Part shown: positions 6,039-43,413 of the stretch, one piece after another
Layout of the letters: each line of letters opens with the position of its first letter
Position numbering within the stretch: position 1 is the first letter of the stretch
Assembly (NCBI RefSeq): GCF_010119205.1
Contig: NZ_WRXM01000005.1
Location: 1-64,000 of the forward strand
Origin: Haloarcula limicola
GTDB taxonomy: Archaea > Halobacteriota > Halobacteria > Halobacteriales > Haloarculaceae
DNA length: 64,000 nt
Direction: 5' to 3'
Translations under genes and position numbers: made by a program
Notes under the pieces: generated by a model
The model's input: only the letters and a program-made list of their open reading frames with translations
What the model was told of the DNA's origin: nothing
Databases searched by the model: none

Positions 6039-6660
6039 TCAGTCCTGGTGGAAGTCCCTCAGCTGTGCGTTGACAACCGTTCGGAGGAGTTCCTCCTGTT
6101 CGGCAATACTCTCCAATCGGGTGTCCTCCGTGATCCGTTTCATGATTCCCGTGGGGTCACCCGTGAAGGTGAACTTCATGTACATCCCACCACCGCGACC
6201 GCGGCTCTTCCTCGATGCCGAAATCAATCCGTACGTGGGAAGCTCCTTGACATACTTGACGTACGTCTCTCGAGTCATCTGGTCCGCGTCGAGCTCGTCC
6301 GTCACCCACTGATACGCTTTGAATCCGACGGGGCTCGGAACAGAACTTCCCGAGCGCTTCGAGTAATGCGCGACGGAAGCAGTAGCGTACAGCGAGATCT
6401 TTTTCTGCGTCGTGAGTCCCTCGACGAGCTTCAAGGAAGGGTCCTTGTCGGTCTCTTCCTGTGATTCGCGGACGTGATGTTCCTCGACGCTGTTGTCACT
6501 ACGCTCGTCAGCGAGGTCGCCGGCGCCACGGAACAGGTCGATTGCCTTACGAGCATCCCCGTGACTTTGTGCTGCGAAGGCAGCGACGAGTGGAATCACG
6601 TCATCTGAGAGCGCATCCGGTCGGAAGGCGTCGCGACGATTCTGGAGAAACCTGCTTGTA
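6039..6660 (-). pseudogene. Truncated Orc1/Cdc6 replication initiator (C-terminal part)
   Basis: The frame ending at 6039 reads ...NRRDAFRPDALSDDVIPL followed by AAQSHGDARKAIDLFRGAGD, the Orc1/Cdc6 helical-lid signature, then a C-terminal winged-helix region to the end. The intact initiator at 28517-29896 has the equivalent EHGDARRAIDLFRLAGE. Nothing upstream encodes the AAA+ ATPase domain: Walker A and B are missing. Homology begins near 6660, and a different frame is open further upstream (to about 6720), so an insertion, deletion or frameshift has broken the gene. A GTG at 6597-6599 could start an about 186-residue product, but without the ATPase domain a normal initiator function is unlikely. 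Confidence 0.7.
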
Positions 6661-13436: not shown

Positions 13437-14374
13437 TGGGAATTGCCGAACAATACACAGAAAATACGCCCGACTCGCGATACGAGCAGACTGTCGGCTA
13501 TCTTCGGCGGAACTACCGAGCGTACTTGCTGATCGCGCCAGCGGCGCTCTTCCTCCTCTCGGTGGTCGGGTATCCGATCTTCGAGACGTTCCGACTATCG
13601 CTGTATCGAGCGCCCGAATCCGCTACGACGGAGACCTTCATCGGGTTCCAGCATTACACCACTATACTCAACAGCCAGATATTCTACCAGCTGGTCTGGC
13701 AAACCGGCCGCTGGGTAGTCGTCTCCGTCTTCCTGAAGACCACCCTCGGGCTACTCATCGCACTCCACCTCAAGGGTGACATTAAAGGTCGGAAGTTCTT
13801 CCGGACGGGGTTCCTCATCCCGTGGGGCATTCCCTATGCTATCTCGGCCGTGGTCTTCCGATGGATGGAACACCCGCAGTACGGTTATATCAACGCGATC
13901 CTCCTGAAACTCGGCGTGATAGAACAGGGGATCGGTATCCTCGGTAATCCCCAGACTGCGTGGCTTGGCGTTGTCGTCGCCGATGCCTGGATCGGGACGC
14001 CGTTTATGGCCATCATCATCCTTGCGGGCCTCCAGTCCATCCCCGACCAGCTCTACGAAGCCGCTGCCGTCGACGGTGCCGAAAAGTGGCATCAGTTCCG
14101 GTATGTCACGCTCCCCCAGCTGAAGAGCGTGCTGCTCATCGCGACGCTGCTGTCGACTATCTGGACGTTCGTCAGCTTCGACGTCATCTGGACGATGACC
14201 GGCGGCGGCCCGATAAACAGCACGGCGACGCTGGTCATCTGGATCTTCGAGACAGCCTTCGCTCAAGGCAATCTCGGTCTCGGTGCGGCCTACAGCGTCA
14301 TCGGCTTCGCCATCCTGGGAGTGTTTGCAGTCGTCTACCTGCGCGTCTACACAAGCGGAGGTGAAGAGCTATGA
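13436..14374 (+). CDS. Sugar-type ABC transporter permease (MalF-like)
   Basis: A 312-residue membrane protein with about six helices. The EAA loop reads YEAAAVDGAEKWHQFRYVTLP near residues 205-225, the site that docks on the ATPase. It pairs with the second permease, which starts 4 bases before its stop (ATGA overlap). The N-terminus up to residue 25 is cytoplasmic; the first helix is AYLLIAPAALFLLSVVGY. Confidence 0.92.
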   Translation: MGIAEQYTENTPDSRYEQTVGYLRRNYRAYLLIAPAALFLLSVVGYPIFETFRLSLYRAPESATTETFIGFQHYTTILNSQIFYQLVWQTGRWVVVSVFLKTTLGLLIALHLKGDIKGRKFFRTGFLIPWGIPYAISAVVFRWMEHPQYGYINAILLKLGVIEQGIGILGNPQTAWLGVVVADAWIGTPFMAIIILAGLQSIPDQLYEAAAVDGAEKWHQFRYVTLPQLKSVLLIATLLSTIWTFVSFDVIWTMTGGGPINSTATLVIWIFETAFAQGNLGLGAAYSVIGFAILGVFAVVYLRVYTSGGEEL

Positions 14375-15216
14375 CGATGGCTGGACACGACCGGAGCGGC
14401 CTCCGCAAGGTTCGCATCTACGGGGTCCTCATAGCGTTGCTGGGGATCATGATGTTCCCGTTCTATACGATGTTCACCAGCACGATCAAGCCCTCGCAGG
14501 AGATGTTCAACTCGCCGGCGACGCTGTTCCCGCAAAATCCGACCTTCGAGGCGTACTTCCAGGTCTGGACGCAGACGGACGTCTTGCTCTGGATCGGGAA
14601 CAGCTTCCTCATCTCCCTGGGAACAGTAGCGCTGACGCTGCTGCTCGCTATCCCCGCCGGCTACTCGTGTGCCCGTAACGACTTCGTCGGGAAGCGGACG
14701 TTCCTCTTGGCGGTCCTGGTCGTTCAGATGTTCGCCCCGGTCGTCCTCATCGTCGGTCTGTTCGACGTTATCGTCCAACTGAACTTCTACAACACCTATT
14801 TCGCCGTCATCATCCCGGCCGCGGCGTTTACGCTACCGTTCAACGTCTGGATGCTGTATGGCTACTTCAAGACGATCCCGATCGAACTGGAGGAGTCGGC
14901 CCGCATCGACGGCGCCAGCCAGTTCCAGATCCTCACGAAGATCGTCCTGCCGCTGACCAAACCCGCGCTCGTCGCTAGCATCACGTACACGTTCCTCTAT
15001 GCGTGGAATCGGCTGCTGTTCGTCCTTACGTTCCTGACCGATAGCAGCAAATACAACGTCCCGCGCGGCGTCTTCTCGATGGTCGGCGCGCTCCAAACAG
15101 ACTGGCGGATGATGCTGACGGTGTCGGTGATCGGCATCATTCCGCTCCTGATCCTATTCGCCTTCCTCGAGGAGTACATCGTCTCCGGGATGACGGCTGG
15201 CGCGGTCAAGGAGTAG
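14371..15216 (+). CDS. Sugar-type ABC transporter permease (MalG-like)
   Basis: A 281-residue permease with about six helices and the EAA loop LEESARIDGASQFQILTKIVLP near residues 170-191. Translationally coupled to the MalF-like gene by an ATGA overlap. It completes an importer consisting of the ATPase at 10109, the binding protein at 12069 and two permeases. A new promoter follows, so the downstream enzymes may be separately transcribed. Confidence 0.92.
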   Translation: MTMAGHDRSGLRKVRIYGVLIALLGIMMFPFYTMFTSTIKPSQEMFNSPATLFPQNPTFEAYFQVWTQTDVLLWIGNSFLISLGTVALTLLLAIPAGYSCARNDFVGKRTFLLAVLVVQMFAPVVLIVGLFDVIVQLNFYNTYFAVIIPAAAFTLPFNVWMLYGYFKTIPIELEESARIDGASQFQILTKIVLPLTKPALVASITYTFLYAWNRLLFVLTFLTDSSKYNVPRGVFSMVGALQTDWRMMLTVSVIGIIPLLILFAFLEEYIVSGMTAGAVKE

Positions 15217-28516: not shown

Positions 28517-29896
28517 TTAGCGACCGACAATATCGACGATCCGCTGGCGCATCCGTGGATCGATCGGAATCTCCGAACAGCGGTCATCAAGGCCGACCGA
28601 TTGCAGTAAGAGACTTGCCTCGTCCAGAAGCGAGATCTGTAGATACGTACCCTCTCGGTACCCATCACTCGTTCTAACCATATCGATGATTTTCAGCGTC
28701 TCGTACTCTCGAAGCTGATCGGTGATTCGCTTCTGTCCGAGGACATCCGCATCGATCGACTGCGCGAATTCACGGTAGATCTGATACATCTCAGTGGCTT
28801 TGAAATGCGACTGGTTCGTGAACTCGTCCATCGCGGCAAGCGCGGCAATTGCGATCTTTGCCTGGGTCGGACACCCTCGAATGAGATCCTGAATTCGCGT
28901 CACTTCAGCGTCGTCGTTGGCAGCGCGGACGTGCTCTTCGCGAACCAAGTCGGCATCATCGTTACGTGCGATTTCCCCAGCGAGTCGGAAGAGATCGATA
29001 GCACGCCGTGCGTCGCCGTGTTCCTGCGCAGAAAACGCTGAACACAGCGGGATGACGTCCCCGGAAAGGATATCGCCGTGGTAGGCGTCCCGACGTCGGT
29101 CTAGAATATCGCCGAGCTGGTTTGCATCGTACGCGGGGAACACGATCTCGTCCGGGGCGAACGAGCTTTCGACACGAGTATCTAATCGATCACCGTATTT
29201 GAGGTCGTTACTGATGCCGGTAACCGTAATGCCGGCTTCGATGTCATTCTCCTCACCGGCTCGGGACAGCTGCATGAGGAGTTTACTATCGTCTGCTTCC
29301 TCTGGGAGAATGTTTTGGACGTCGTCAGACGGTGCGAGACGGTCGATCTCGTCGAGGACGACAATAACCGCATCGTAGAGCTCGTCGATAATCGTCCATA
29401 ATCGGTCGTAGTACGCCCCCGTCGCAATGCCCGACTGCGGAATCGTCACACCTGTTTTGTCGGAATCATTGAGGCTCTTCGCGAGATGAATGATGGTTTG
29501 GACCTCTGACCGACGCTGCGCGCAGTCAATAATAGCACGGCCGATACGAACATCGTTATCCGCACCGCGTTCCGCCACCTCCCGACAGACATACCGAGTG
29601 ACGAGTGTTTTCCCGGAACCGGATTTTCCGAGTAGAAGTGTCCCTTTTCCGGAACCGCCAGTGATTGCCGGTTTGAATCGACGAGCAACCGTTTCGATCT
29701 GGTTATTCCGCCCGACGATTTTGTCGTGGTCCGGGATATGGTCAATACGGAGTAGGTCTTCATCGGCGAAGATCGGGTCTTCCTCGTCCAGAACAGAAAG
29801 TGGATCATCGCGAGACTTGGAGCGAGAGTGGGCGACTGCTCCGTGCTCGGCAGCGTAATCGCCGAGCGTACTCATCTGCTCCTCACTTGAGGCCAT
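28517..29896 (-). CDS. Orc1/Cdc6 replication initiator
   Basis: A 459-residue origin recognition protein. Seen: a 40-residue acidic N-terminus, initiator signature IPDHDKIVGRNNQIE near residue 53, Walker A GKSGSGKT at residues 90-97, Walker B VVLDEID near 179-185, sensor 1 region GITVTGISND near 210, the lid motif QEHGDARRAIDLFRLAGE near 295, and a C-terminal winged helix (YQIYREFAQSIDADVLGQKRITDQLREYETLKIIDMV) that binds origin boxes. ATG 29896 is followed by ATG 29875. Immediately upstream lie repeats that fit origin boxes, so the gene and origin probably form one unit, as is usual in haloarchaea. Confidence 0.95.
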   Translation of the reverse strand: MASSEEQMSTLGDYAAEHGAVAHSRSKSRDDPLSVLDEEDPIFADEDLLRIDHIPDHDKIVGRNNQIETVARRFKPAITGGSGKGTLLLGKSGSGKTLVTRYVCREVAERGADNDVRIGRAIIDCAQRRSEVQTIIHLAKSLNDSDKTGVTIPQSGIATGAYYDRLWTIIDELYDAVIVVLDEIDRLAPSDDVQNILPEEADDSKLLMQLSRAGEENDIEAGITVTGISNDLKYGDRLDTRVESSFAPDEIVFPAYDANQLGDILDRRRDAYHGDILSGDVIPLCSAFSAQEHGDARRAIDLFRLAGEIARNDDADLVREEHVRAANDDAEVTRIQDLIRGCPTQAKIAIAALAAMDEFTNQSHFKATEMYQIYREFAQSIDADVLGQKRITDQLREYETLKIIDMVRTSDGYREGTYLQISLLDEASLLLQSVGLDDRCSEIPIDPRMRQRIVDIVGR

Positions 29897-29897
29897 A

Positions 29898-30610
29898 CAC
29901 CGGATTTCAAATGAAATTGACTTAGTTCTTTCCCTCGAATCGACCCGTCACTTGGAGCCGCCTGTATAACAGACGAGCAGATCCACAGAGGACACCAGGT
30001 TTCAGATGATTCGTGCGGATGGACACCTAAGATACCCCTCACACCCACACCAGATTTCAAATGAAATTTCCGAACGAACGACCTGGATGCAGCCATCGTT
30101 ACACACCCACCCCGGATTTCAAATGAATTCCCGCAAGAGTAAACCCCATCGTCGAGCGAGATGCTATGGAGAGGGCGTTCGTGAATCTCGACTAACTGCA
30201 TAGAAGAAGCGTTGTCTACCGGAAATCAATTGAAATTCGGTGTCAGATTGGTATGTACTGTGAGAGAACGTTGAGCGAATAGCTAACGGATTTCTAGCCG
30301 GGTTTCTCTAGAACGATAATATAAATGCAGCTATAGCAGATCTGGGCCTCGATCCAATATTTGCTCTACCTCCAGAGAATCCAACTTTCACAGCTTTACT
30401 ACTACTACTACTTTACCGTTACAATAAAATATATAATAACGCGAAGAGACAGCCAGTTTCCACCTGAAGTCTAAAACGACATCTTATCGGGTTAGAAACC
30501 TTTTACCGTGCAAACAACCATCAGAAGACTCTCAAGTGGATTCCCCCTCGGCTGACCCCCTCCTTCCGTTGGAACCGATTTCATTTGAAATCCGGGGTGG
30601 GGGTGTCGCC
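29898..30610. other. Candidate replication origin beside orc1/cdc6
   Basis: Four box-like repeats lie on one side (about 29898-29917, 29991-30010, 30047-30070, 30101-30130), a weaker one at about 30219-30240, and one in the opposite orientation at about 30575-30610. All share CGGATTTCAAATGAAAT or a near variant, preceded by C-rich sequence (CACACCCACC) that in the last copy reads as a G string on the + strand. Between the oppositely oriented boxes lies very AT-rich DNA (30350-30450), suited to unwinding. This matches the general layout of haloarchaeal origins. Confidence 0.78.
30398..30445. other. AT-rich probable unwinding element
   Basis: A run of TACTAC repeats followed by an AATAAAATATATAATAA-like stretch lies between the two sets of oppositely oriented origin boxes. 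This is the least GC-rich part of the candidate origin. Confidence 0.5.
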
Positions 30611-32080: not shown

Positions 32081-32335
32081 CTACTTCTCCCGAACCACGG
32101 GTCGGAGCGCCGTCGCGTCCTTGTCGTACCCCAGCCAAACGCTCAACGCGGCCGCGACGAAGACGAGATATACGGGAAACAGGCAGACGAGCGCGTACGC
32201 AACGAACGCTAGAGTGAGGCCACCGACCCAGTAGAGGAGTCCGATACCGACGAGACCGACGAGAGCACCAGCGCCTACGCCGAGGCGGAACGCGTGGGCT
32301 GCGGCCGGGCCGGGGGAGATTCGTACCGTCTTCAT
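32081..32335 (-). CDS. Small two-helix membrane protein (hypothetical)
   Basis: An 84-residue protein with two clear membrane segments (about residues 18-38 and 42-68) and a basic C-terminal tail. ATG 32335 is preferred over an upstream start because the first helix then lies near the N-terminus. Function unknown; divergent from the DHFR gene. Confidence 0.6.
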
Positions 32336-32494
32336 GCGAGAATTTGGATCCAGGGACCGATAAACACCTCGAAATCCGACAATTCTAATTATAAATACTA
32401 CACTCACGTCTATCTACTGCATTGCTCTCTTCGTACGTGTCGACGATACACGGGGCGAAAGATTATGTCCGCTTCAGTCTCACCGACAGACAGA

Positions 32495-32983
32495 ATGGCA
32501 CTTTCGCTCGTCGCCGCGGTCGCCGCGAACGGCGTCATCGGGGCCGACGGTTCGGTTCCGTGGCACTACCCCGAGGACCTCGAACACTTCAAGCGGACGA
32601 CAGTGGGCCACCCCGTTATCGTGGGTCGCCGGACGTTCGAAACTATCGCCCAAGAGTTGGGTGGTCCGCTCCCGGAACGACACAACGTCGTCCTGACCCA
32701 TCGACCTGAGAGCCTCCCCGACTCAGTCGCCGTCGTCGAGTCGCGGTCGGACGCACTCGCAGCGGCGCAGTCTACCGGCGCGGCGACGGCCTACGTCATC
32801 GGCGGCGGGTCGGTATATCGGCAGTTCCTCCCTGACGCCGACGAACTGGTATTGACCGAATTAGACGCCGCTTACGAGGGTGATACGACCTTCCCGTCGG
32901 TCGATTGGAGCCAGTGGCGCGTAGTCGACCGGGACAGGCGCGATGCCTTCGAAATAGTCACCTACGCTCGCCGGACGCGGTGA
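32495..32983 (+). CDS. folA: Dihydrofolate reductase
   Basis: A 162-residue type I DHFR that reduces dihydrofolate to THF with NADPH in the cytoplasm. Seen: [12 protein letters not shown] at the N-terminus, [16 protein letters not shown] with the active-site acid near residue 27, the GRRTFETI motif near residue 45, and the cofactor segment [13 protein letters not shown] near 105. An in-frame ATG at 32465 would add 10 residues; 32495 matches family N-termini. It opens the folate-rich section of the window, about 110 bases before the methyltransferase gene, and would keep the THF pool reduced. Confidence 0.92.
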
Positions 32984-33060
32984 GTCACCCCGTCTCGGGC
33001 CGGTCGACGACGGCGGCGTGCTACAGCCACACAAAAAGGGTGGGTGTTATCCGGGCTATC

Positions 33061-33068
33061 TTTTATTA
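33061..33068 (+). promoter_or_regulatory. TATA element for the GcvT/DmdA-like gene
   Basis: TTTTATTA lies 26-33 bases before ATG 33094, indicating a leaderless mRNA and supporting that start over the upstream in-frame TTG at 33073. Confidence 0.55.
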
Positions 33069-33093
33069 GCGATTGCGGACATGCTCTACAAGC

Positions 33094-34473
33094 ATGAGCG
33101 GGAACGAGGAACACCCAAACCACCCGAGTATCGACCAATCTGATCGAACAGTCCCACGAAACCTCCGTCAGACCGGTGACCCCGACATCGAGATGCTCGT
33201 CTCGACTCGCGTTCGGAAATCACCCTTCTTCCACAAGTCCTTCAACGAGGAGGGCGCCTGGCGGGCCACCGTCTACAACCGTCTCTACCACCCGCGCGGC
33301 CTCATCGAGCCCGAGGACGGCGGCGTGATGAAGGAGTACGACGCCCTGACCAACGACGTGACGCTCTGGGACGTGGCCGTCGAGCGCCAGATCCGCGTCA
33401 AGGGTCCGGACGCCGAGGAACTCACGAACTACGTCGTCACCCGCGACGTGACGGGGATGGACGCGATGGACGGGAAGTACGTCATCCTCTGTAACGAGGA
33501 CGGCGGCGTCCTCAACGACCCGGTTCTGCTCCGCCCCGAAGAGGACGAGTTCTGGTTCTCCATCTCCGACTCGACGCTGATGCAGTGGCTCCAGGGCGTC
33601 AACGTCGACAACGACTTCGACGTCGAGATCGACGAGATCGACGTCGCGCCGATGCAGATCCAGGGTCCCAAGTCCGAGGACGTGATGATCGACGTCGTCG
33701 GCGAGAAGGTCAGCGACATCCCGTACTACGGCCTGATGGAGGCCGAGATCGACGGCGTCGACGTGCTGATCAGCCAGACCGGCTTCTCCGGCGAGAAGGG
33801 CTTCGAGATATACGTCAAAGACGCTCAGAAGTACGCCGAGCGGGTCTGGGACCCGGTCATGGCGAGCGTCAAGGACCACGGCGGCCGCCAGATCGCGCCG
33901 GGCCACCACCGACGCATCGCCGCCGGCATCATGTCGTGGGGACAGGACATGGACCACGAGACCTCCCCGTTCCAGGTCAACCTCGGCTATCAGGTGCCCG
34001 ACGACAAGGAGGCCGACTACATCGGCAAGGAGGAACTCGAAAAGCAGAAAGAGCAGATCGAGAACGGCGACTACCCGTTCGAACACAAGCTCATCGGCCT
34101 GAAGATGGCCGGCGAACCCATCCGCGACTACGCGCCGGACTTCTGGATCATCTCCGATCCGGACACCGGCGAGGAGTGCGGCTACCTCACGTCGCCGTGG
34201 TGGAACCCGGACCTGGAAACCAACATCGGCATGGGCTTCGTCCCCGCCGACAAGATACAGGAGGTCACGGACACGCCGCTCAACGACGACATCTACGACG
34301 AGACACTCGACTTGGAGTTCGAAGTCCACCTCCCCGACGAGTACGCCGAAGAGGAGGGCGAACCGGTGTTCGCCACGGTCGCGAAGGTGCCGTTCAAGGA
34401 GTCGGTCAACCCGAGCGCCCGCGAACAGGCGAAGCTCAACGCCCGCAAGGAAGCCGAAAGCAGTAGCGACTGA
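33094..34473 (+). CDS. Stand-alone GcvT/DmdA/LigM-family THF-dependent methyltransferase
   Basis: A 459-residue aminomethyltransferase-family protein without the FAD domain. Seen: WRATVYNRLYHPRG near residue 50, WDVAVERQIRVKGPDAEEL near 90, IQGPKSEDVM near 190, SQTGFSGEKGFEIYVKD near 228-244, and a C-terminal GcvT barrel (KLIGLKMAGEPI). The family includes DMSP demethylase (DmdA) and the O-demethylases LigM/DesA, which pass a methyl group to THF. It is too long for simple GcvT and no GcvH or GcvP is visible in the window. DHFR is upstream, and a cupin gene follows after 114 bases. Donor could be DMSP, betaine or a methoxy compound; unknown. Confidence 0.82.
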   Translation: MSGNEEHPNHPSIDQSDRTVPRNLRQTGDPDIEMLVSTRVRKSPFFHKSFNEEGAWRATVYNRLYHPRGLIEPEDGGVMKEYDALTNDVTLWDVAVERQIRVKGPDAEELTNYVVTRDVTGMDAMDGKYVILCNEDGGVLNDPVLLRPEEDEFWFSISDSTLMQWLQGVNVDNDFDVEIDEIDVAPMQIQGPKSEDVMIDVVGEKVSDIPYYGLMEAEIDGVDVLISQTGFSGEKGFEIYVKDAQKYAERVWDPVMASVKDHGGRQIAPGHHRRIAAGIMSWGQDMDHETSPFQVNLGYQVPDDKEADYIGKEELEKQKEQIENGDYPFEHKLIGLKMAGEPIRDYAPDFWIISDPDTGEECGYLTSPWWNPDLETNIGMGFVPADKIQEVTDTPLNDDIYDETLDLEFEVHLPDEYAEEEGEPVFATVAKVPFKESVNPSAREQAKLNARKEAESSSD

Positions 34474-34587
34474 TCGGCGCGACTCACTGACGGCATCGCG
34501 TCCGGCCGCCCGGCGGCCGTGACGATTCCTCTCTGCCATCTGCTTTCCGCCTCCAGATTCAAGTCGCTCGGCCCGGGACTGTCGCAC

Positions 34588-34968
34588 ATGTCCGACGACT
34601 TCGTCATCGTCGACCCGGAGGCGGTGCCGCCGGAATCGTTCCAGACCTGCGAGACGGCCGTCCGGAAACTGACCGAGCCGCTCGGCTGTACCGAACTGCG
34701 CGTGAACCAGGTGCTGGTCGAACCCGGCGAAGTGACGACGCCGCACACCCACGACGGCCAGGAAGAAGTGTTCTCCGCCGTGACGGACGGCCAGATCGCT
34801 ATCGACGGGGACGTCCACGATGTCCCGGCCGGCGCCCTCGTCCGCGTCCACCCCGACACGATACGGAACCTCTGTAACCACACCGAGGAGCGCCACGTCT
34901 GGCTGGCGTTCGGTGCCCCGCCCGTCGGCTCCGTCGAGAACTTCGGGGAATACGTCGTCGAGGAGTGA
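34588..34968 (+). CDS. Cupin-domain protein
   Basis: A 126-residue single-domain cupin. The metal motif is seen in TPHTHDGQEEVFSAVTDGQ (two His, Glu) near residues 51-70, and the second part in VHPDTIRNLCNHTEERHVWLAF near residue 90. ATG 34588 gives the normal family start; the open frame upstream is not cupin-like. Cupins bind metals and may act as DMSP lyases, isomerases or regulators. Next to a DmdA-like gene this invites the idea of a linked sulfur or methyl-compound pathway, but its substrate is unknown. Confidence 0.85.
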   Translation: MSDDFVIVDPEAVPPESFQTCETAVRKLTEPLGCTELRVNQVLVEPGEVTTPHTHDGQEEVFSAVTDGQIAIDGDVHDVPAGALVRVHPDTIRNLCNHTEERHVWLAFGAPPVGSVENFGEYVVEE

Positions 34969-35005
34969 CTATCGGGGTCCCGATGTCAGCCCGATCGCAT
35001 CCCGT

Positions 35006-36253
35006 TCACTCGTAGAGCGCGTACTCGTCGGTCAGCTCGTCGACGTGCTCGCTCACCGCCGCGATGATTCCCTCGTCGTGTGGGGCCTCGACGACGTCGT
35101 AGATGAGGTCGGCCACTTCGCGACAGGCGTCCTCGTCGAAGCCCCGCGTCGTCAGCGCCGGCGTGCCTGCGCGGATGCCCGAGGGGTTGAACGCCGACCG
35201 GGTCTCGCCCGGTACCGTGTTCGCGTTCAGCACGAGACCCGCTTCTTCGAGCGCTTCCTCGACTTCCTTGCCCGTCGTGTCGGGATGAGACGGGCGCAAA
35301 TCGACGAGGACGAGGTGGTTGTCCGTGCCATCGGAGACGAGGTCCAGGCCGTGCTCTTGGAGACGGTCGCCCAGCGCCTTCGCGTTGGCGACGGTCTGTT
35401 CGGCGTACGCCTCGAACTCGGGGTCGAGCGCCTCGCCGAAGCCGACCGCTTTGCCCGCGACGTTGTGCATGAGCGGGCCGCCCTGCGAGCCGGGGAACAC
35501 CGCCGCGTCGACGTCGTCGGCGTGCTCCTCGCCGCACATGATTATCCCGCCGCGGCCGGCGCGAATGGTCTTGTGCGTCGAGCCGGTGACGAAGTCGGCG
35601 ACGCCGACGGGCGACTCGTGGACACCGGCGGCGACCAGTCCCGTGATGTGGGCGATGTCGGCGAGGTGGTAGGCGTCGGCGGCGTCGGCGGTCTCCTGGA
35701 TCCGCTGGAAGTCGACCTCTCGGGGGTACGCCGAGTAGCCCGAGACGATGACGTCGGGGTCGAACTCCTCGGCGTGGTCGGCGAGGCCCTCGTAGTCGAT
35801 GTACCCGGTTTCGGCGTCGACCTCGTACTGTTCGACGTCGTAGACCTGCCCGGCGAAGTTCGCGGGGTGGCCGTGCGAAAGGTGGCCGCCGTGGGTCAGG
35901 TCAAGTGAGAGGATCTTGTCGCCCGGGTCGAGGACGGCGAGGTAGACGCCCATGTTGGCCTGCGAACCCGAGTGCGGCTGGACGTTGACGTGCTCCGCGC
36001 CCCATAGTTCCTGGGCGCGTTCGATGGCCAGTTCCTCGATCTCGTCGGCGTACTCACAGCCGCCGTAGTAGCGCTCGCCGGGGTAGCCCTCGGCGTACTT
36101 GTTGGTGAGTTCGGAACTCTGGGCCTCCATGACGGCCTCGGAGACGTGGTTTTCGCTGGCGATCATCGCGAGCGTGTCGTTCTGGCGTGCGCGCTCGCCC
36201 TCGAGCGCGTCGGCTATCGCCTGGTCGACCTCGCGGACGGTGTCGTACGTCAT
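35006..36253 (-). CDS. glyA: Serine hydroxymethyltransferase
   Basis: A 415-residue PLP enzyme interconverting serine plus THF with glycine plus methylene-THF. Seen: IASENHVSEAVMEA near residue 31, SGSQANMGVY near 95-104, and the PLP Lys in TGSTHKTIRAGRGG near residue 225. ATG 36253 is preceded by a TATA-like element at about 36275-36284. It is convergent with the cupin gene. In this cluster it can take glycine and methylene-THF released by the dehydrogenase-type proteins and form serine, which the dehydratase at 46191 may convert to pyruvate. Confidence 0.95.
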   Translation of the reverse strand: MTYDTVREVDQAIADALEGERARQNDTLAMIASENHVSEAVMEAQSSELTNKYAEGYPGERYYGGCEYADEIEELAIERAQELWGAEHVNVQPHSGSQANMGVYLAVLDPGDKILSLDLTHGGHLSHGHPANFAGQVYDVEQYEVDAETGYIDYEGLADHAEEFDPDVIVSGYSAYPREVDFQRIQETADAADAYHLADIAHITGLVAAGVHESPVGVADFVTGSTHKTIRAGRGGIIMCGEEHADDVDAAVFPGSQGGPLMHNVAGKAVGFGEALDPEFEAYAEQTVANAKALGDRLQEHGLDLVSDGTDNHLVLVDLRPSHPDTTGKEVEEALEEAGLVLNANTVPGETRSAFNPSGIRAGTPALTTRGFDEDACREVADLIYDVVEAPHDEGIIAAVSEHVDELTDEYALYE

Positions 36254-36336
36254 ATTCGCTACAGGGGCCGGCAACGGAATAATCTAGCCTCGACAGAACC
36301 TACAGCGAGATTGACTGGTTGTGGTCGATGCTCGAC

Positions 36337-37212
36337 TCAGGTCGAGAGCCGACCGTTCCGCCACGACTCGGTGTCGGGCGTCTGGTTGAACGTGTAGATG
36401 TGGAGGCCGCGGATGTTGTAGGACTCGTCGTCCGCGTGCGGCCCGAGGCCGTCGACGAGGGAATCCGGTTTGTAGGTCCCCCGCGAGCCGATGAGTTGCC
36501 GGACGAAGCCGAGGATGCCGGTCGTCTTCTTGAGGAACTTGATGGAGTCGCCGACGCCGACCTTCTGTGAGATCTGCGTCAGGCGCTTGTAGTTCATCAC
36601 GCCGGGGATACCGATCTCGACGGGTAAGTCGACGCCGCGGTCACGGACGTCGCGGATCCACTCGAGGACGGCTTCGGGGTCGTAACAGAGCTGCGTGACG
36701 ATGTACGTCGCGTACGGCTCCTTCTTCTGCATCGCCTCCGCCAGCGTCTCCTCGTCTAGGAACTCGTGGCCCTCCGGGTAGCCGGTGATGCCGACCTCCT
36801 CGAAGGAGTACTCGGTCTCCGAGAGGGTCGTGAGGAGGTCGTACGCCGACTCGAACTCGCCGGCCGGTTCCTCTCGGTCGCCGCCGGGGACGAAGATGTC
36901 CGTGACCCCGGCCTCGGTGAGCCGGCGAGCGATCTCTTCGAGGTGCTCGCGGTCCTCGACGTACCGTGCCGCTACGTGAGGAACCACGTCGAACCCCTTC
37001 TCGGCTGCCATCTCGCTCTTCTCGATGGTTCTGTCGATGCCTAACTGGGGCGAGGTGGTGATCGCAATCGTCGCGCCCTCGGGGAGGTGCTGTATTTCGT
37101 CGTCGAAACTGTCGAACGGCATCAGTTCGAACCGGACGTTTTCGAGGAGCGTCTCGGCGCCCGGGGCGTCCGAGGCGGCGAGCGAGTTCAGTGACATCTC
37201 TTGGCGAGACAT
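36337..37212 (-). CDS. metF: Methylenetetrahydrofolate reductase
   Basis: A 291-residue single-domain TIM-barrel MetF. Seen: the N-terminal FELMPFDSFDDEIQHLPEGATIAITTSP strand, IFVPGGDREEPAGEF near residue 105, ITGYPEGHEF near 135, and TQLCYDPEAVLEWI near 165. It links methylene-THF and methyl-THF. In a catabolic setting it could oxidise methyl-THF from the DmdA-like protein; in biosynthesis it serves methionine formation. ATG 37212 is favoured by its conserved MSRQEMSL start and a TATA box near 37251-37259. A separate promoter lies between it and GlyA. Confidence 0.92.
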   Translation of the reverse strand: MSRQEMSLNSLAASDAPGAETLLENVRFELMPFDSFDDEIQHLPEGATIAITTSPQLGIDRTIEKSEMAAEKGFDVVPHVAARYVEDREHLEEIARRLTEAGVTDIFVPGGDREEPAGEFESAYDLLTTLSETEYSFEEVGITGYPEGHEFLDEETLAEAMQKKEPYATYIVTQLCYDPEAVLEWIRDVRDRGVDLPVEIGIPGVMNYKRLTQISQKVGVGDSIKFLKKTTGILGFVRQLIGSRGTYKPDSLVDGLGPHADDESYNIRGLHIYTFNQTPDTESWRNGRLST

Positions 37213-37256
37213 AGGGGCGGTCCCCCTTTTCTCTGTGGGTGCTGTTACCAACCCAT

Positions 37257-38318
37257 TTAAGTGGCACCGGACACCTCAGTGGTCGTACACTGCCGAATCC
37301 GCCGGACGACGTCGTCCCGAGAAGCCGTCCGGTCTCCGTGGTCGAGTCGGCACAACACGAGGTCGAGAACGTTGAGCTGACCCAAAAGTTCGCGCGTGCG
37401 TTGCTGGTCGAGACCGAGTCGGCGTTCGACCTCGTAGACGGCCCCCGACTCCACGACGGCATCGACGACGTCCTCGACCTGGACGTCTTCGGGAAGTCCG
37501 AGACCGTCCGTGACGAGCTGCTCTTCCGGGATGGTATCGAGTGGGGCAGCGGCCTGGTTTGGATGCTGGGTGGTGGGTTCGGACGATGGCTCCTCCTCCT
37601 CTTCCGCTTCGACGGACTCGGCGTCGCCGGCAGTGTCGTAGGAGGTCGGGTCGTGGACGCCCGCCTCGATCATGTATCGTCGAACCGTCTCGGCCGCTAC
37701 GTCCATCGGGATGTGTTCGCTCATCTCGGTGAAGGTGTCACAGGCCTCGTAGAGGGCAGTGAGGTACTCGGTGTCCTCGTAGGCGGGAACGGACTCGTTT
37801 CGGACCGCCGCGAGCCGATTCGACAGGTCGTCCGACTCAGCGGGGTCTTCCGACTCCGATGGGTCTCTGGACTTGGTGGGGTCTTCCGACTCGGCGAGTT
37901 CGGCGGCTTCGTCTCCATCCGGATGCGACGCTTCGGCCGACACCGGCCCCTGTGCCCCCTCGCACGTGGACTCGATCGTGAGTTCGGCTGTCACGACGAG
38001 GATGCCGTCGACGACCCGTACGGCGTGCTCGTCGGTCGAGATGGTCACGCCGTCCACCGACGGGACGTCGAACAGTTCCGACACTGAGAACTCGGCCGTG
38101 AGGCCGCCGTCGGAGAGCGACGCCGACTCCAGACTGATCCCCGAGTCCAGCCCGCTCTCGGATTCCGCACATAGCGACACCGGGGCGTCCACGCTGACGT
38201 GGAGCGTCTCCGCGTCGCCGGAATCCGTCCTCGCTTCGACGTCCCGAATCGACCGACCGCGTGATTCGTACCGTTCGACTATCCGCGAGAGGACGTCGAA
38301 CGAACGTTGGAGTCCCAT
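37257..38318 (-). CDS. Hypothetical acidic protein with a repeated linker
   Basis: A 353-residue acidic protein of unknown function. N-terminal residues 1-120 form a beta-rich domain (VSVSELFDVPSVDGVTISTDEHAVRVVDGILVV). A low-complexity linker at about 135-160 repeats SEDP/SRDP-like units. The C-terminal half holds a helix-turn-helix-like segment (TVRRYMIEAGVHDP) and another possible one (LLGQLNVLDLVLC). It may be a gene regulator. A perfect palindrome at 38324-38338 lies just before its start. It is upstream of metF on the same strand; a long antisense frame is not coding. Confidence 0.65.
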   Translation of the reverse strand: MGLQRSFDVLSRIVERYESRGRSIRDVEARTDSGDAETLHVSVDAPVSLCAESESGLDSGISLESASLSDGGLTAEFSVSELFDVPSVDGVTISTDEHAVRVVDGILVVTAELTIESTCEGAQGPVSAEASHPDGDEAAELAESEDPTKSRDPSESEDPAESDDLSNRLAAVRNESVPAYEDTEYLTALYEACDTFTEMSEHIPMDVAAETVRRYMIEAGVHDPTSYDTAGDAESVEAEEEEEPSSEPTTQHPNQAAAPLDTIPEEQLVTDGLGLPEDVQVEDVVDAVVESGAVYEVERRLGLDQQRTRELLGQLNVLDLVLCRLDHGDRTASRDDVVRRIRQCTTTEVSGAT

Positions 38319-38323
38319 GGTAT

Positions 38324-38338
38324 TGTCATACTATGACA
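38324..38338. promoter_or_regulatory. Perfect palindrome at the promoter of the hypothetical gene
   Basis: TGTCATA-C-TATGACA is an exact inverted repeat with 7-base arms, 6 bases before the ATG at 38318, near the expected transcript start. It is a candidate operator, possibly for the gene's own product. Confidence 0.5.
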
Positions 38339-38429
38339 CGTTATGGAGCATAATCGTACGTGAGGAATACACAACCCATTCAAATGGCGAGTTCCCGTGG
38401 CCGAGCGACGAGGACGGCGGCCAGCGGGC

Positions 38430-39383
38430 TCAGACCGGCGTCCCGATACCGGCGAGTCGCTCGCCCGCGACGACGACCGCTTCCCGAGTCAGTGAATACG
38501 CGACGCCGCTGTCCTCGGCGGTTACGGTCTGGAGTCGGTCGAACGACGACGGGCAGTAGACGGTCCCCAACTCGTCGCCAGCGTCGACTCGGTCCCCGAC
38601 CGCCACGTCCGGCCGCGCCTCGAACAGTCCCGATTCGGCGGCGACCGCGGCGGTCGCGTCGTCTCGGAGTAGACGCTGTTCGGGCGGCTCGGCGACCACC
38701 GGTTCGAGGGCGTCGACCGCTCTGAGGACGTTCAGGACGCCCTCGACGCCCGATTCGATCGCCGAACGGGTCACCTGTCGGCTGTTGCGGAGTTCGGCGG
38801 TGATGGCCGGGATGTCCTCGCGGGCGGCCGCCGTTCGGAACTTCCCGCTGAAGTCGTCGTCGGATGCGTCGTCCTCGTCGCTCAGTAGGTGCTTCGTGCC
38901 GAACGCCGTCGCGAGCGTCCGGGCGGCCGGTCGGCCGGCCTGAAACCGGACGTGTTCCAGCATGTCGGCGGTTCCGGTGTGCAAGTCGATGGCCGCGTCC
39001 GCGTCGCTCACGAGGTCCCAGAGCCGGTCGGCGAGGCGCTCCTGCAACGTTCCGTCGCTGTCGCCCGGCCAGACGCGGTTCATGTTCGGATTCATCACGT
39101 CGTACGCCGAGGGAGTCGCGTACGAGCGATGGTCGAACGCGAGCGAGTTCGCCACCGGCACGACGATGACGGTGCCGGCGACCTCGGTCGCTAACAGCCG
39201 GTCGTGTAAGCGCCGCAGCGCCGCCGGCCCGTTCAGTTCGATGCCGTGCTGTGCGGCCTGGACGTACACCGTCGGCCCCGCGCCGCCGTCGTACCGATGG
39301 ACGGTGGCGGTGACGTCGGCACCCGACGGGAGGCGTCCGAGGCGGCGCTGGGTCGCCGCGTGCGAGACCGGTTCGTACTCCAT
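38430..39383 (-). CDS. Succinylglutamate desuccinylase/aspartoacylase-family deacylase
   Basis: A 317-residue zinc deacylase (M14-like fold). Seen: QAAQHGIELNG near residues 42-52 giving zinc His and Glu, IDLHTG near 140 with the second zinc His, and a catalytic region ITAELRNS near 195 with Glu. The C-terminal domain (DVAVGDRVDAGDELGTVY) resembles lipoyl-like or barrel folds of the family. It would cleave an N-acyl amino acid or related amide. ATG 39383 is chosen; the frame further upstream overlaps the divergent creatininase-family gene and is not protein-like. Possible role in freeing amino acids or osmolytes such as N-acyl compounds. Confidence 0.82.
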   Translation of the reverse strand: MEYEPVSHAATQRRLGRLPSGADVTATVHRYDGGAGPTVYVQAAQHGIELNGPAALRRLHDRLLATEVAGTVIVVPVANSLAFDHRSYATPSAYDVMNPNMNRVWPGDSDGTLQERLADRLWDLVSDADAAIDLHTGTADMLEHVRFQAGRPAARTLATAFGTKHLLSDEDDASDDDFSGKFRTAAAREDIPAITAELRNSRQVTRSAIESGVEGVLNVLRAVDALEPVVAEPPEQRLLRDDATAAVAAESGLFEARPDVAVGDRVDAGDELGTVYCPSSFDRLQTVTAEDSGVAYSLTREAVVVAGERLAGIGTPV

Positions 39384-39428
39384 ACGGAGTGGCCGTCCGC
39401 TGGATGCAAAAAGCACCGGGCGGCGGAG

Positions 39429-39435
39429 TTTTATC
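39429..39435 (+). promoter_or_regulatory. TATA element for the creatininase-family gene
   Basis: TTTTATC lies about 25-31 bases before ATG 39460, typical of a leaderless transcript. Confidence 0.45.
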
Positions 39436-39459
39436 GGTGTCCCCGGCGAGCGAACGCGT

Positions 39460-40194
39460 ATGGACCTGACAACCGCGACGTGGACGGAGATGGACGACGC
39501 CGAGACGGACCTCGCGCTGTTGCCCGTCGGTAGCACGGAGCAGCACGGTCCGCACGCGCCGCTCTCGACGGACACGCTCAACGCCGAGACGCTCGCCGAG
39601 CGGGCGGCCGAGCGGCACCCTGACCCGGTCGTCGTCGCGCCCCCGGTTCCAGTCGCCATCGCCGAGGAACACAGGCGCTTCGCCGGGACCCTGTGGACGT
39701 CCGAGTCGACGTTCCGGTCGTACGTCCGGGACATCGTCGGCAGCCTCGCGTCCCACGGCTGGGACCGCGTCGTCCTCGTCAACGGTCACGGCGGTAACGT
39801 TCCGGCGCTCCGGGAGGTCGCCGGACGGATAGTTCGCCACGACGACGCGTACGCGGTCCCGTTCACGTGGTTCGAGGAGGTCGGCGACCACAGTTCGGAC
39901 ATGGGTCACGGCGGACCGCTGGAGACGGCGCTCCTCCGGCACGCCAACCCCGAGACGGTCCGCGAAGAGCGATTGGACGAGGCCGCCGAGGGCGGCAGCG
40001 ACCGCTGGGGCGACTGGCAGGGCCGGGTCAACCTCGCGTTCGACTCCGACGAGTTCACCGACAACGGCGTCGTCGGCGACCCGCGGGAGGGGAGCGCCGA
40101 ACTGGGCGAGGAGCTGTTGGAGACGGCCAGTCGGGCGCTCGTCGACCTGCTCGACGCCGTGGCCGAACGGGACCCCGGCCCCACCGCCGAATAA
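39460..40194 (+). CDS. Creatininase-family amidohydrolase (ArfB or creatininase-like)
   Basis: A 244-residue metal hydrolase. Seen: PVGSTEQHGPHAPLSTDT near residues 22-39 and VLVNGHGGNVP near 106-116, plus MGHGGPLETALL near 147. In archaea close relatives include ArfB, which removes formate from a GTP-derived pyrimidine in riboflavin and F420 synthesis; others open creatinine. Here either role could fit: folate/GTP chemistry nearby, or creatinine entering the sarcosine route. The sequence is clearly distinct from the family member at 11208. ATG 39460 with a TATA box gives a leaderless start. It converges with the GlcG-like gene, whose stop abuts its own. Confidence 0.83.
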   Translation: MDLTTATWTEMDDAETDLALLPVGSTEQHGPHAPLSTDTLNAETLAERAAERHPDPVVVAPPVPVAIAEEHRRFAGTLWTSESTFRSYVRDIVGSLASHGWDRVVLVNGHGGNVPALREVAGRIVRHDDAYAVPFTWFEEVGDHSSDMGHGGPLETALLRHANPETVREERLDEAAEGGSDRWGDWQGRVNLAFDSDEFTDNGVVGDPREGSAELGEELLETASRALVDLLDAVAERDPGPTAE

Positions 40195-40614
40195 CTACTC
40201 CGAGAGTTCCTGCCAGCGCTCCACGCCCGCCTCCGCGACCTCGCGGTCCTGCGAGACGGCCCCCCCGGAGACGCCGATCGTGCCGACTATCTCGCCGTCC
40301 CGTTCGAGCGGGTAGCCGCCGCCGAAGATGACGATGCGGCCCTCGTCGGTGGTCTGCAACCCGTACAGCGAGTTGCCCGGCTCCGACGGTTCGGCGAGTT
40401 CGTGGGTCGGCGTTTCGAGGGCGGCCGCGGTGTAGGCCTTGTTCCGCGAGATGCTGACGGAGGCCAACCACGCGCCGTCCATGCGGTGCTGCGCGACGAG
40501 GTTCCCCTCGCTGTTGGCGACGGTGACGACCATCGGGTTGTCGATGTCCTCGGCTTTCGCCTCGGCCGCTTCGATGAGTTCTGTCGCGGTCTCGAGTGGG
40601 ATGGACTGAACCAT
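40195..40614 (-). CDS. GlcG/HbpS-family protein
   Basis: A 139-residue GlcG/HbpS-family (DUF336) protein. Seen: VVTVANSEGNLVAQHRMDGAWLASVSISRNKAYTAAAL near residues 28-65, and a Gly-rich FGGGYPLERDGEIVGTIGVSGG near 97-118. Relatives bind haem or cobalamin or accompany oxidation pathways. ATG 40614 was chosen; longer frames cross the divergent promoter for the dehydrogenase-type gene. Role beside the FAD dehydrogenases is unclear. Confidence 0.85.
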   Translation of the reverse strand: MVQSIPLETATELIEAAEAKAEDIDNPMVVTVANSEGNLVAQHRMDGAWLASVSISRNKAYTAAALETPTHELAEPSEPGNSLYGLQTTDEGRIVIFGGGYPLERDGEIVGTIGVSGGAVSQDREVAEAGVERWQELSE

Positions 40615-40798
40615 GCGTGTCACCCGACTCGCGTCCGTCGTAAATGTCTTTGTGCCGACGCGCTCGGAGCGACCCGTGAGCCCGTCGCAGCGCCCGGAAC
40701 GCGCCCGTGTCAGTTGTCTCACAGGGGTATCTCTGTTATTCTCAACCTCGAAGTAACAGCTCAGGTACCTTTTGAAAAAGGGAGGGGCACCGGCGACA

Positions 40799-40808
40799 GC
40801 TATATCTG
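40799..40808 (+). promoter_or_regulatory. TATA element for the first FAD-GcvT fusion gene
   Basis: AGCTATATCT lies 26-35 bases before ATG 40834, pointing to a leaderless mRNA and to the start used here. Confidence 0.5.
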
Positions 40809-40833
40809 CCCGCCAGCGGCACGTTCGAAACAG

Positions 40834-43413
40834 ATGATGGATACGACCGACAGCGTGCCGAACCGGGCCGACACGGTCATCGTCGGGGCCGGCATCGTCG
40901 GCTGCAATCTGGCGTACCAGTTGACGGAACTCGGGCGCGACGACGTCGTCGTCGTGGATCAGGGCCCGATGCCGACCACGGGCGGGTCGTCGACGCACGC
41001 ACCGGGCATCATGTTCCAGACGGCCGAACCGAAGGAACTCAGCCAGTTCGCGAACTACAGCCGGAAGCTCTATTCGGAGCTGGAGGGGGCCGACGGCCAG
41101 CAGGCGTACAACGAGGTCGGGGGCATCGAGGTGGCCCGCAGCGAGGAGCGGATGGCGTTCCTCCAGCGCCGCGTCGAGCACGCGAAGGCCTGGGGTATCG
41201 AGGACCCGCAGCTACTCTCCCCGTCGGAGGTCACCGACCATCTCCCCCTGGTCGACGAGAGCCAAATCCTCGGCGGCTACTATTCGCCGACGGACGGTCA
41301 GGTCTCGGGAGTCGTCGCCTGCGACGCCCTGGCCCGAGAGGCGATGGACCGGGGTGCGGAGTTCGTCCCGCACACGCGCACGGAAGACATCGAGATCGAG
41401 GGCGACTCGGTCGAGCGCGTCGTCACCGAAGACGGCGCCATCGAGTGCGAGGAGGTGGTGGTGGCGACGAACATCTGGGCCCGGCAGCTGGGCGAGAAGA
41501 TCGACGTACACCTGCCGGTGACGCCGGTCGAGCACCAGTACACGATGACCGAATCCCTCTCGGAGATGGAAGAGAGCGCGGTCGACATCACCGACCACCC
41601 GCTGTTCGAGAACTACGAGAACGTCTCCGGCGAGAAGGCGAAGCGGCTGCTCGTCGGTCCCGACCGTCCGATCCTCCGGGATCAGGACAACGCGATGTAC
41701 TACCGGACGCACGGGGATTCCTACGGCATCGGCTCGTACAATCACGAATCCATCGTCCCGGACCCGGAGGAACTCGGCGGCAACGACCCCGACGGCGAGC
41801 AGGGGTCGGTCCACGAGTTCACCGACGTCCACATGGACACCGCGACCCACCCGGACCGCCCGCACAAGGCCCCCCGACAGGCCAGCGACGAACTGCTGCC
41901 GGCGACCGAGGGCGCGGAACTGGAACACAAGTACAACGGGATGTTCTCGGAGTCGCCCAACGGCCTCCCGATCATGGGACCGGTCCAGTCGTGCGAGGGA
42001 CTGTGGACCGCGGCGGCTATCTGGGTCACCCACGCCGGCGGTGCGATGAAGGCGATGGCCGAGTGGATGGAGAACGGCGTCCCGCAGCTGGACGACGGTC
42101 CTATCGACCTCTCGCAGTGTAACGTCAACCGCTTCGACGAGCACGAGGGGAGCTGGGACTTCGCCCGCGACATCGGCGCGGAGGAGTACCGCATCGTCTA
42201 CAACATCATGCATCCCAAGTGGGTGTGGACGGACAATCAGCGGGACATCCGCCGGACGCCGATGTACCACACCCACGAGGAGTACGGCGCGGAACTGTGG
42301 GCCGAAGCCGGGTGGGAGGAGCCGCAGTGGTTCGAGTCCAACGCCGACCTCGTAGAGGAGTACGGCGACCGGATCCCCGACCGCGACGGCTGGGAGGGCG
42401 TCTACTGGTCGCCCATCGAGGGGGCCGAGGCCCTGCACGTCCGCGAGAAGGTCGGACTCCACGACATGACCTCGTTCAACAAGATGGAGGTCATCGGTCA
42501 GGACGCGGGCGAGTTCCTCCAGTACCTCTGTACGAACGACATCGACCTCGACGTGGGCGGCATCCGCTACACGCTGCTGTGCAACGAGGGCGGCGGCGTC
42601 CGCGCGGACGTCACCGTCACGCGGACCGACGAGGACCGCTACCTCCTGCTGACGACCGGCCGCGAGGTCGGGAACAACCACGTCGCGTGGGTGCGCGAGC
42701 AGTCGCCCGAGGGCGTCGTGGTCAACGACGTGACCTCCAGTATGGCGGCGATGGTCTGTACCGGCCCCGACTCCCGAAAGGTGCTCTCGAAGGTGCTGGA
42801 CGCGGACCTCTCGGACGACGCCTTCCCGTTCTACACGAGCCAGGAGTGCTTCGCGGAGAACGTCCCCGTCCGGGCGATGCGGCTCTCCTACGCCGGCGAA
42901 CTCGGGTGGGAGCTGTACACGCCCTCCGAGTACGGCGAGCGGCTCTGGGAGATCGTCCTCGAGGCCGGCGAGGAGTACGACATCCGGCCCTACGGCAACG
43001 GCGCGCTGGACGCCCTCCGCATCGAGAAGGGATTCCGGCTGTGGGGCGAAGACCTCCACACGGAGCACAACCCCTACGAGAGCGGCCTCGGCTGGGCCGT
43101 CGATCTCGACACGGAGTTCATCGGCAAGGAGGCCGTCGCGGCCGCCGCGGAGGGCGACAACGTCGCTCACGAGGTCGCCTGTCTCACGTTGGACGACGAG
43201 GACGCGGCCATCCTCGACGACCGGCCGGTCTTCGCTCCGGGCTCGGACGAGGCGCTGGGCTACGTCCACAGCGCCGAGTACGGCTACGCCACCGGTGCCT
43301 GCGTCGCCTACACCTATCTCCCGCCGGAGTACGCCGACCCCGGGACCGACCTGGAAGTCCTCTTCGAGGGCGATCGGTACGCCGCGACGGTCCGCGAGGA
43401 ACCGCTCGTCTGA
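40834..43413 (+). CDS. FAD-dependent dimethylglycine/sarcosine dehydrogenase-type protein fused to GcvT
   Basis: An 859-residue two-part enzyme. Residues 12-430 form a DAO-type FAD oxidoreductase: VIVGAGIVGCN at 15-25, GGSSTHAPGIMFQT near 50-63 (the His lies where relatives attach FAD), and a C-terminal FAD segment. After a linker, residues about 520-855 are GcvT-like (HDMTSFNKMEV, SYAGELGWELYTPSEYG) and would receive the oxidised methyl group on THF as methylene-THF. Substrate could be dimethylglycine, sarcosine or similar N-methyl amines. ATG 40834/40837 is supported by a TATA box. A paralogue follows 191 bases downstream. Long antisense and alternative frames over this GC-rich gene are not coding. 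Confidence 0.92.
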   Translation: MMDTTDSVPNRADTVIVGAGIVGCNLAYQLTELGRDDVVVVDQGPMPTTGGSSTHAPGIMFQTAEPKELSQFANYSRKLYSELEGADGQQAYNEVGGIEVARSEERMAFLQRRVEHAKAWGIEDPQLLSPSEVTDHLPLVDESQILGGYYSPTDGQVSGVVACDALAREAMDRGAEFVPHTRTEDIEIEGDSVERVVTEDGAIECEEVVVATNIWARQLGEKIDVHLPVTPVEHQYTMTESLSEMEESAVDITDHPLFENYENVSGEKAKRLLVGPDRPILRDQDNAMYYRTHGDSYGIGSYNHESIVPDPEELGGNDPDGEQGSVHEFTDVHMDTATHPDRPHKAPRQASDELLPATEGAELEHKYNGMFSESPNGLPIMGPVQSCEGLWTAAAIWVTHAGGAMKAMAEWMENGVPQLDDGPIDLSQCNVNRFDEHEGSWDFARDIGAEEYRIVYNIMHPKWVWTDNQRDIRRTPMYHTHEEYGAELWAEAGWEEPQWFESNADLVEEYGDRIPDRDGWEGVYWSPIEGAEALHVREKVGLHDMTSFNKMEVIGQDAGEFLQYLCTNDIDLDVGGIRYTLLCNEGGGVRADVTVTRTDEDRYLLLTTGREVGNNHVAWVREQSPEGVVVNDVTSSMAAMVCTGPDSRKVLSKVLDADLSDDAFPFYTSQECFAENVPVRAMRLSYAGELGWELYTPSEYGERLWEIVLEAGEEYDIRPYGNGALDALRIEKGFRLWGEDLHTEHNPYESGLGWAVDLDTEFIGKEAVAAAAEGDNVAHEVACLTLDDEDAAILDDRPVFAPGSDEALGYVHSAEYGYATGACVAYTYLPPEYADPGTDLEVLFEGDRYAATVREEPLV

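Follow-up and report, generated by a model that had tools for sequence, protein, structure and literature searches.

Haloarchaeal replication origins adjacent to orc1/cdc6 (Wu et al. 2012, PMC3528665), such as oriP-cdc6K of pHH400 in Haloarcula hispanica, combine the initiator gene with inverted, G-string-bearing boxes around an AT-rich stretch, and each initiator family has its own box. One active ori–cdc6 pair is required per replicon in H. hispanica (PMC3936714), and some haloarchaeal origins are dormant, two of the seven predicted in H. hispanica having no ARS activity (PMC3528665). We analyzed a window of 64,000 nucleotides from the Haloarcula limicola genome (3.9 Mb in seven contigs), comprising bases 1–64000 of the 201,921-bp contig C5, and found an arrangement of the same kind, again with a box belonging to its own initiator family. 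Judged by its sequence, the region at 28517–30604 has all the defining features, at that level, of haloarchaeal orc1/cdc6-linked origins (PMC3528665, PMC4010727), and it is very probably a self-contained initiator–replicator module serving as the replication origin of the C5 replicon. The gene, the boxes, their orientation and uniqueness, their conservation, and the fixed spacing of the elements can be read directly from the DNA. The preliminary description had recognized the layout of haloarchaeal origins here, a view supported by the intact initiator, the facing boxes, the AT element, the uniqueness of the boxes, and the roughly 30 loci conserving them.

The initiator gene occupies 28517–29896 on the minus strand and encodes a 459-aa Orc1/Cdc6 with AAA+ and winged-helix domains, the adjacent intact gene seen in haloarchaeal ORB-type origins. 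Both Pfam Cdc6_lid (1.9e-22) and Cdc6_C (1.1e-13) scored above cut-off, in agreement with the earlier claim of an intact initiator gene, and the closest PDB relatives by sequence were 2v1u (8e-52) and two chains of 2qby (3e-45), with which the Walker A (GKSGSGKT) and Walker B (VLDEID) motifs align. This is the sole intact orc1 on C5. A second orc1/cdc6 sequence on the minus strand at 6039–6650, 33% identical, comprises the C-terminal part only (lid and winged helix) and looks like a pseudogene or relic.

The repeats reported earlier lie in the intergenic region upstream of orc1 (29897–30604). Allowing up to three mismatches, the 17-mer CGGATTTCAAATGAAAT matched six times in the window, with 0.07 matches expected by chance and none of 100 shuffles reaching six; two of these matches (30575 on the plus and 30578 on the minus strand) form one near-palindromic site. 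For a finer search, we used a 30-bp box matrix (consensus GAATTTCATYTGAAATCCGGTGTGGGGGTG) built from approximately 130 boxes of orthologous loci. Its training set included the window's own boxes, although the uniqueness was also seen with plain patterns, and as the matrix was trained on its own family, the bit scores indicate consistency rather than proof of binding. Scanning the whole of C5, we found six ORB-like boxes at 20–45 bits, the next best site scoring 10.9. Four are on the minus strand: box 1 (29891–29920, 35 bits), whose G-side overlaps the orc1 start codon at 29894–29896; box 2 (29986–30015, 20 bits), which is degenerate and by its sequence poor; box 3 (30041–30070, 45 bits); and, 62 bp from the latter, box 4 (30103–30132, 45 bits), the inner of the strong gene-side boxes. 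On the plus strand, these are faced by box 5 (30220–30249, 33 bits) and by box 6 (30575–30604, 44 bits), the last largely invariant across the aligned orthologues and with a long G-string pointing outward. The preliminary description, which listed four boxes near the gene and one some 450 bases beyond, was thus right about the strong outer pair but had missed box 5. The G-strings characteristic of halophiles are present at the ends of box 6 (GGGGTGGGGGTG), box 4 (GGGGTGGGTGTG), and box 3 (GGTGTGGGTGTG), are short in boxes 1, 2, and 5, and face outward on both sides of the array.

The array shares with H. hispanica oriC1-cdc6A (PMC3936714) the facing boxes with C- or G-strings on their outer ends. 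It also has a C/G-rich tract just inside a box, CCCCCTCCCC in H. hispanica oriC1 (PMC3936714) and here a G-rich tract on the minus strand at 30556–30563, inside box 6 (CCCCCTCC on the plus strand). The position is G-rich in most orthologues, with a mean of 7.2 G per best 10-mer versus 4.7 further in, but unlike in H. hispanica oriC1-cdc6A, the tract is clear on one side only. The number of boxes also differs, six compared with two in the minimal H. hispanica oriC1, as does the box core: no oriC1-type box (TTCCANNCGAAACNAAGGGG) occurs at the C5 origin, and the genome has its oriC1-like box, TTCCACCCGAAACGAAGGGG, on contig C2, where the C5-family matrix scores −9.6 at best. In the main texts consulted on haloarchaeal origins, the box ATTTCATYTGAAATCCGGTGTGGGG and its family were not found; both may have been listed before.

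Between the facing boxes, at the place of the TACTAC repeats and AT run described earlier, we identified a conserved AT-rich melting element (DUE) of low duplex stability, TTATTATATATTTTATTGTAACGGTAAAGTAGTAGTAGTAGT, at 30398–30439 on the minus strand. At least two inverted ORB-like repeats thus surround an AT-rich element, as in ORB-type origins. At the 30- or 50-bp scale, only six loci on C5 are less stable. The element matches the family consensus at 40 of 42 positions, and 165 bp separate it from the outward end of box 6. Its gene-side end is a TAG-type trinucleotide run, TAGTAGTAGTAG, at 30398–30412 on the minus strand, a sequence occurring only twice in the whole genome. In the orthologue alignment, TTATTATATATTTTACTATAACGGTAAAG(TAG)n was the only long conserved block between the facing boxes.

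Drawing on studied haloarchaeal origins and on Orc1 structures, we infer Orc1 binding, DNA melting, MCM loading, and autorepression at this locus. The Orc1/Cdc6 encoded at 28517–29896 would bind the six boxes, its winged helix reading the sequence dyad and its AAA+ part the G-string. With boxes 3 and 4 on one side, box 6 on the other, and box 5 in between, the complex would be held around the AT-rich 30398–30439, whose melting would allow MCM loading and bidirectional replication. Directly upstream of box 1, at 29921–29933 on the minus strand, is a conserved promoter-like element, GGAAAGAACTAAG, kept in most orthologues; its role as a promoter is presumed. An overlap between the first box and the orc1 start codon is seen at every one of the 30 loci listed, and in most of these GGAAAGAACTAAG, or something close to it, comes immediately before the box. 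Since box 1 lies between the promoter-like element and the start codon, Orc1 bound there should silence its own gene, and such autorepression would probably limit reinitiation. Without the cdc6 promoter, a related H. hispanica origin no longer showed ARS activity (PMC4441112), and the stretch with GGAAAGAACTAAG and box 1 is therefore probably part of the functional origin unit.

The overlap of box 1 with the start codon would also suit a set of Orc1 sites serving autoregulation or titration alone, without any origin function, and an ORB-rich region downstream of cdc6E does titrate the initiator in H. hispanica (PMC3936714). A pure operator, however, has no need for facing boxes about 700 bp off, an AT element at a fixed distance, or outward G-strings, and the matrix scan of C5 revealed neither single boxes nor an oriC2-type titration cluster downstream of orc1; we consider this explanation very improbable. 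Two Halobaculum plasmids (L155 and L161) carrying homologues do have two extra boxes of a derived type right after orc1, resembling the titration cluster of H. hispanica oriC2.

The origin reading gains from the conservation of the array. Orthologues of the initiator with 79–91% identity were first taken from 26 genomes, all 26 with the box array upstream; the array recurs in additional plasmids, and approximately 30 orthologous loci, many of them on plasmids, keep the array and the AT element, those within one genus being non-independent. Complete plasmids bearing the orthologue come from Haloarcula halophila, Haladaptatus, Haloferax gibbonsii (pHG3), Haloferax mediterranei (pHME132), Halalkalicoccus, and Halorussus; the complete replicons are plasmids of 114–616 kb plus one "chromosome 2". 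No viral relatives were found in the viral contigs searched. The two strong gene-side boxes are 61–63 bp apart in 21 of 27 loci, and many orthologues have a counterpart of box 5 at about −390 to −440. In Haloarchaeobius sp. FL176 (L029), a 63-bp box-bearing unit is repeated in tandem approximately 220–480 bases before orc1, giving five box copies at 63-bp steps, an amplification that may alter copy number. On a Halorussus caseinilyticus plasmid (L159), an IS6 transposase gene (1785–2501) lies just upstream of the orthologous orc1; this origin looks broken, as only box 1 remains.

Across orthologues, the TAG run lies anywhere from about −290 to −980 relative to the gene, a more than threefold range, while in 28 of 34 loci the DUE keeps a distance of 154–156 or 163–168 bp from the outward end of the AT-side box. 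The six exceptions are L053 and L160, at 179 and 182 bp and with extended TA repeats; two homologues from Halobaculum, both with 139 bp; and L041 and L159, in which the DUE was not recognized. The two common distances differ by about one helical turn, but with Halobaculum at 139 bp, we do not claim helical phasing as a strict rule. Compared with Halobellus rufus, Haloarcula halophila has the box-to-box segment (~500 bp, with 69% identity to the opposite strand) inverted between collinear flanks, and the DUE is also reversed in Halorussus ruber and in both Halobaculum homologues (protein identity, 62%). Such core inversion has occurred in at least three lineages, and the AT-side distance in the inverted cores is 164 bp in Haloarcula halophila, 167 bp in Halorussus ruber, and 139 bp in Halobaculum. 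Recombination between the inverted boxes is the simplest cause, and the natural inversions suggest that the core may take either orientation relative to the gene, provided that the inverted-core origins are active. The (TAG)n melting element at a fixed distance and the invertible core are new details.

The DnaA-trio of the bacterial basal unwinding system (BUS) consists of 3'-GAT-5' repeats (PMC10721633). The C5 origin resembles it in that a TAG-type trinucleotide run adjoins the DNA to be melted and keeps a set distance to one initiator box. The differences are that the initiator is Orc1/Cdc6 and not DnaA, that the run is about 190 bp from the box instead of beside it, and that TAG runs are no general feature of haloarchaeal origins. 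Among 56 loci of other Orc families, we counted 17 TAG-type runs of at least 11 nt near orc1 versus 3 farther away, but most of the near ones represent a single conserved motif, CCACTGCCAGTAGTAGTAGCG, apparently inside a neighboring coding sequence (NDNRYYYWQW), and the idea of a general haloarchaeal origin element was dropped. Only L096, L097, and L135 of the 56 have a TAG run beside AT-rich DNA. The conserved sequence with CCACTGCCAGTAGTAGTAGCG is found close to orc1 of several families (L098, L103–L105, L109–L130, and others) and, from its sequence, appears to encode the NDNRYYYWQW motif within an unnamed small protein. For the C5 family, a speculative and rather doubtful proposal is that the (TAG)n run and the adjacent TTACTATAACGGTAA form a strand-specific docking site at a fixed box distance, where Orc1/Cdc6 or MCM would grip single-stranded DNA. 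This would give archaea a counterpart of the DnaA-trio, within a plasmid origin family whose core could be inverted through the inverted boxes and still work.

The preliminary description regarded the box type as specific to this initiator and proposed searching the genome for it. No scatter was observed: allowing one mismatch, the core 13-mer GATTTCAAATGAA occurs at four places in the 3.9-Mb genome, all at the 28517–30610 locus, with none in the control. The other five large contigs each carry an orc1 with different repeats of its own, the linked boxes being GTAACAGCGGAAGCGGTGGGGT on C1, TTCCACCCGAAACGAAGGGGTGGGGGGG (oriC1-like) on C2, AACACATCGATAGAGGGGTGT on C3, GAACACTCGACACGGTGGGGTGGG on C4, and ACGACGGAAACGTGGGGTGT on C6. 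A search of 145 related genomes for the pattern CACMCCGGATTTCARATGA gave 11 matches, ten of them beside the orthologous orc1 in the five genomes that have it. The eleventh lies next to an Orc of Halorientalis sp. IM1011 that is 35% identical. The box is thus tied to its cognate initiator family with one exception, and the claim of specificity holds inside the genome but is breached elsewhere by the Halorientalis Orc. The latter locus (L156, NZ_CP019069) has one strong and one weaker box downstream of the gene, at approximately 14281–14405 of the contig, and upstream ORFs resembling an IS200/IS605-type transposon; we rejected the possibility of a second Orc family with the same box, as two homologues at 54–61% identity lack it. 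In the Halobaculum homologues, the box is of a derived form, ATTTCATTTGAACAGTGGTGTG, and box and initiator thus seem to change together. As another reading, the repeats could be centromere-like partition sites for a ParB-type protein. Boxes occurring repeatedly on a plasmid would fit such sites, and parA is near orc1 in some orthologous plasmids; yet the boxes track the orc1 orthologue and have ORB anatomy with a G-string, and the ParA-type ATPase of C5 is at 66.3 kb, 36 kb from the array. We give partition repeats hardly any credence.

The 202 kb of C5 contain no tRNA and the orthologues are on plasmids, and C5 therefore looks like a separate replicon needing an origin, probably a megaplasmid. 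Circularity was sought by end overlap, but the ends do not overlap and the contig is unclosed. Treating C5 as a closed circle, we found the minimum of the detrended GC skew at 35.3 kb, 4.9 kb from the array, and the maximum at 127.7 kb, the antipode of the origin being at 131.4 kb. A minimum and maximum this near the origin and antipode were seen in 0.2–0.5% of block shuffles, with closeness limits set after seeing the data. The amplitude alone was weak, with P values of 0.02–0.24 depending on block size and non-significant at larger blocks. The skew check proposed earlier thus revealed a turn within about 5 kb and a maximum near the antipode but a weak amplitude, and it agrees weakly with an origin near 30 kb, as support and not proof. 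To the right of the array, at 32294–43413, is a folate one-carbon and sarcosine/dimethylglycine-type cluster with DHFR, GcvT-like proteins, SHMT, an MTHFR-like protein, and an FAD oxidoreductase–GcvT fusion; the G+C content is 63–69% right of ~32 kb versus ~50% in the origin region.

The unclosed contig leaves room for a competent but dormant origin: the module would be intact, but C5 would belong to a larger replicon or rely on another origin for its copying. Dormant look-alikes linked to orc1 are known from H. hispanica (PMC3528665) as well as Haloferax mediterranei (PMC4595724). C5, however, has no second intact orc1 beyond the C-terminal fragment at 6039–6650, its lack of tRNA and the plasmid location of the orthologues speak for a separate replicon that would need an origin, and the skew turns near the locus. 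Dormancy is in our view unlikely, and an active origin of the C5 replicon is the preferred reading.

The C5 module adds a clear and widely spread type of plasmid origin to the haloarchaeal set. Its orthologues are numerous enough to tell which parts are fixed, namely the box spacing, the box at the start codon, and how far the melting element lies from the box, and these fixed parts allow direct and cheap tests of DNA opening by an archaeal Orc1/Cdc6. The module could also serve as a vector origin.
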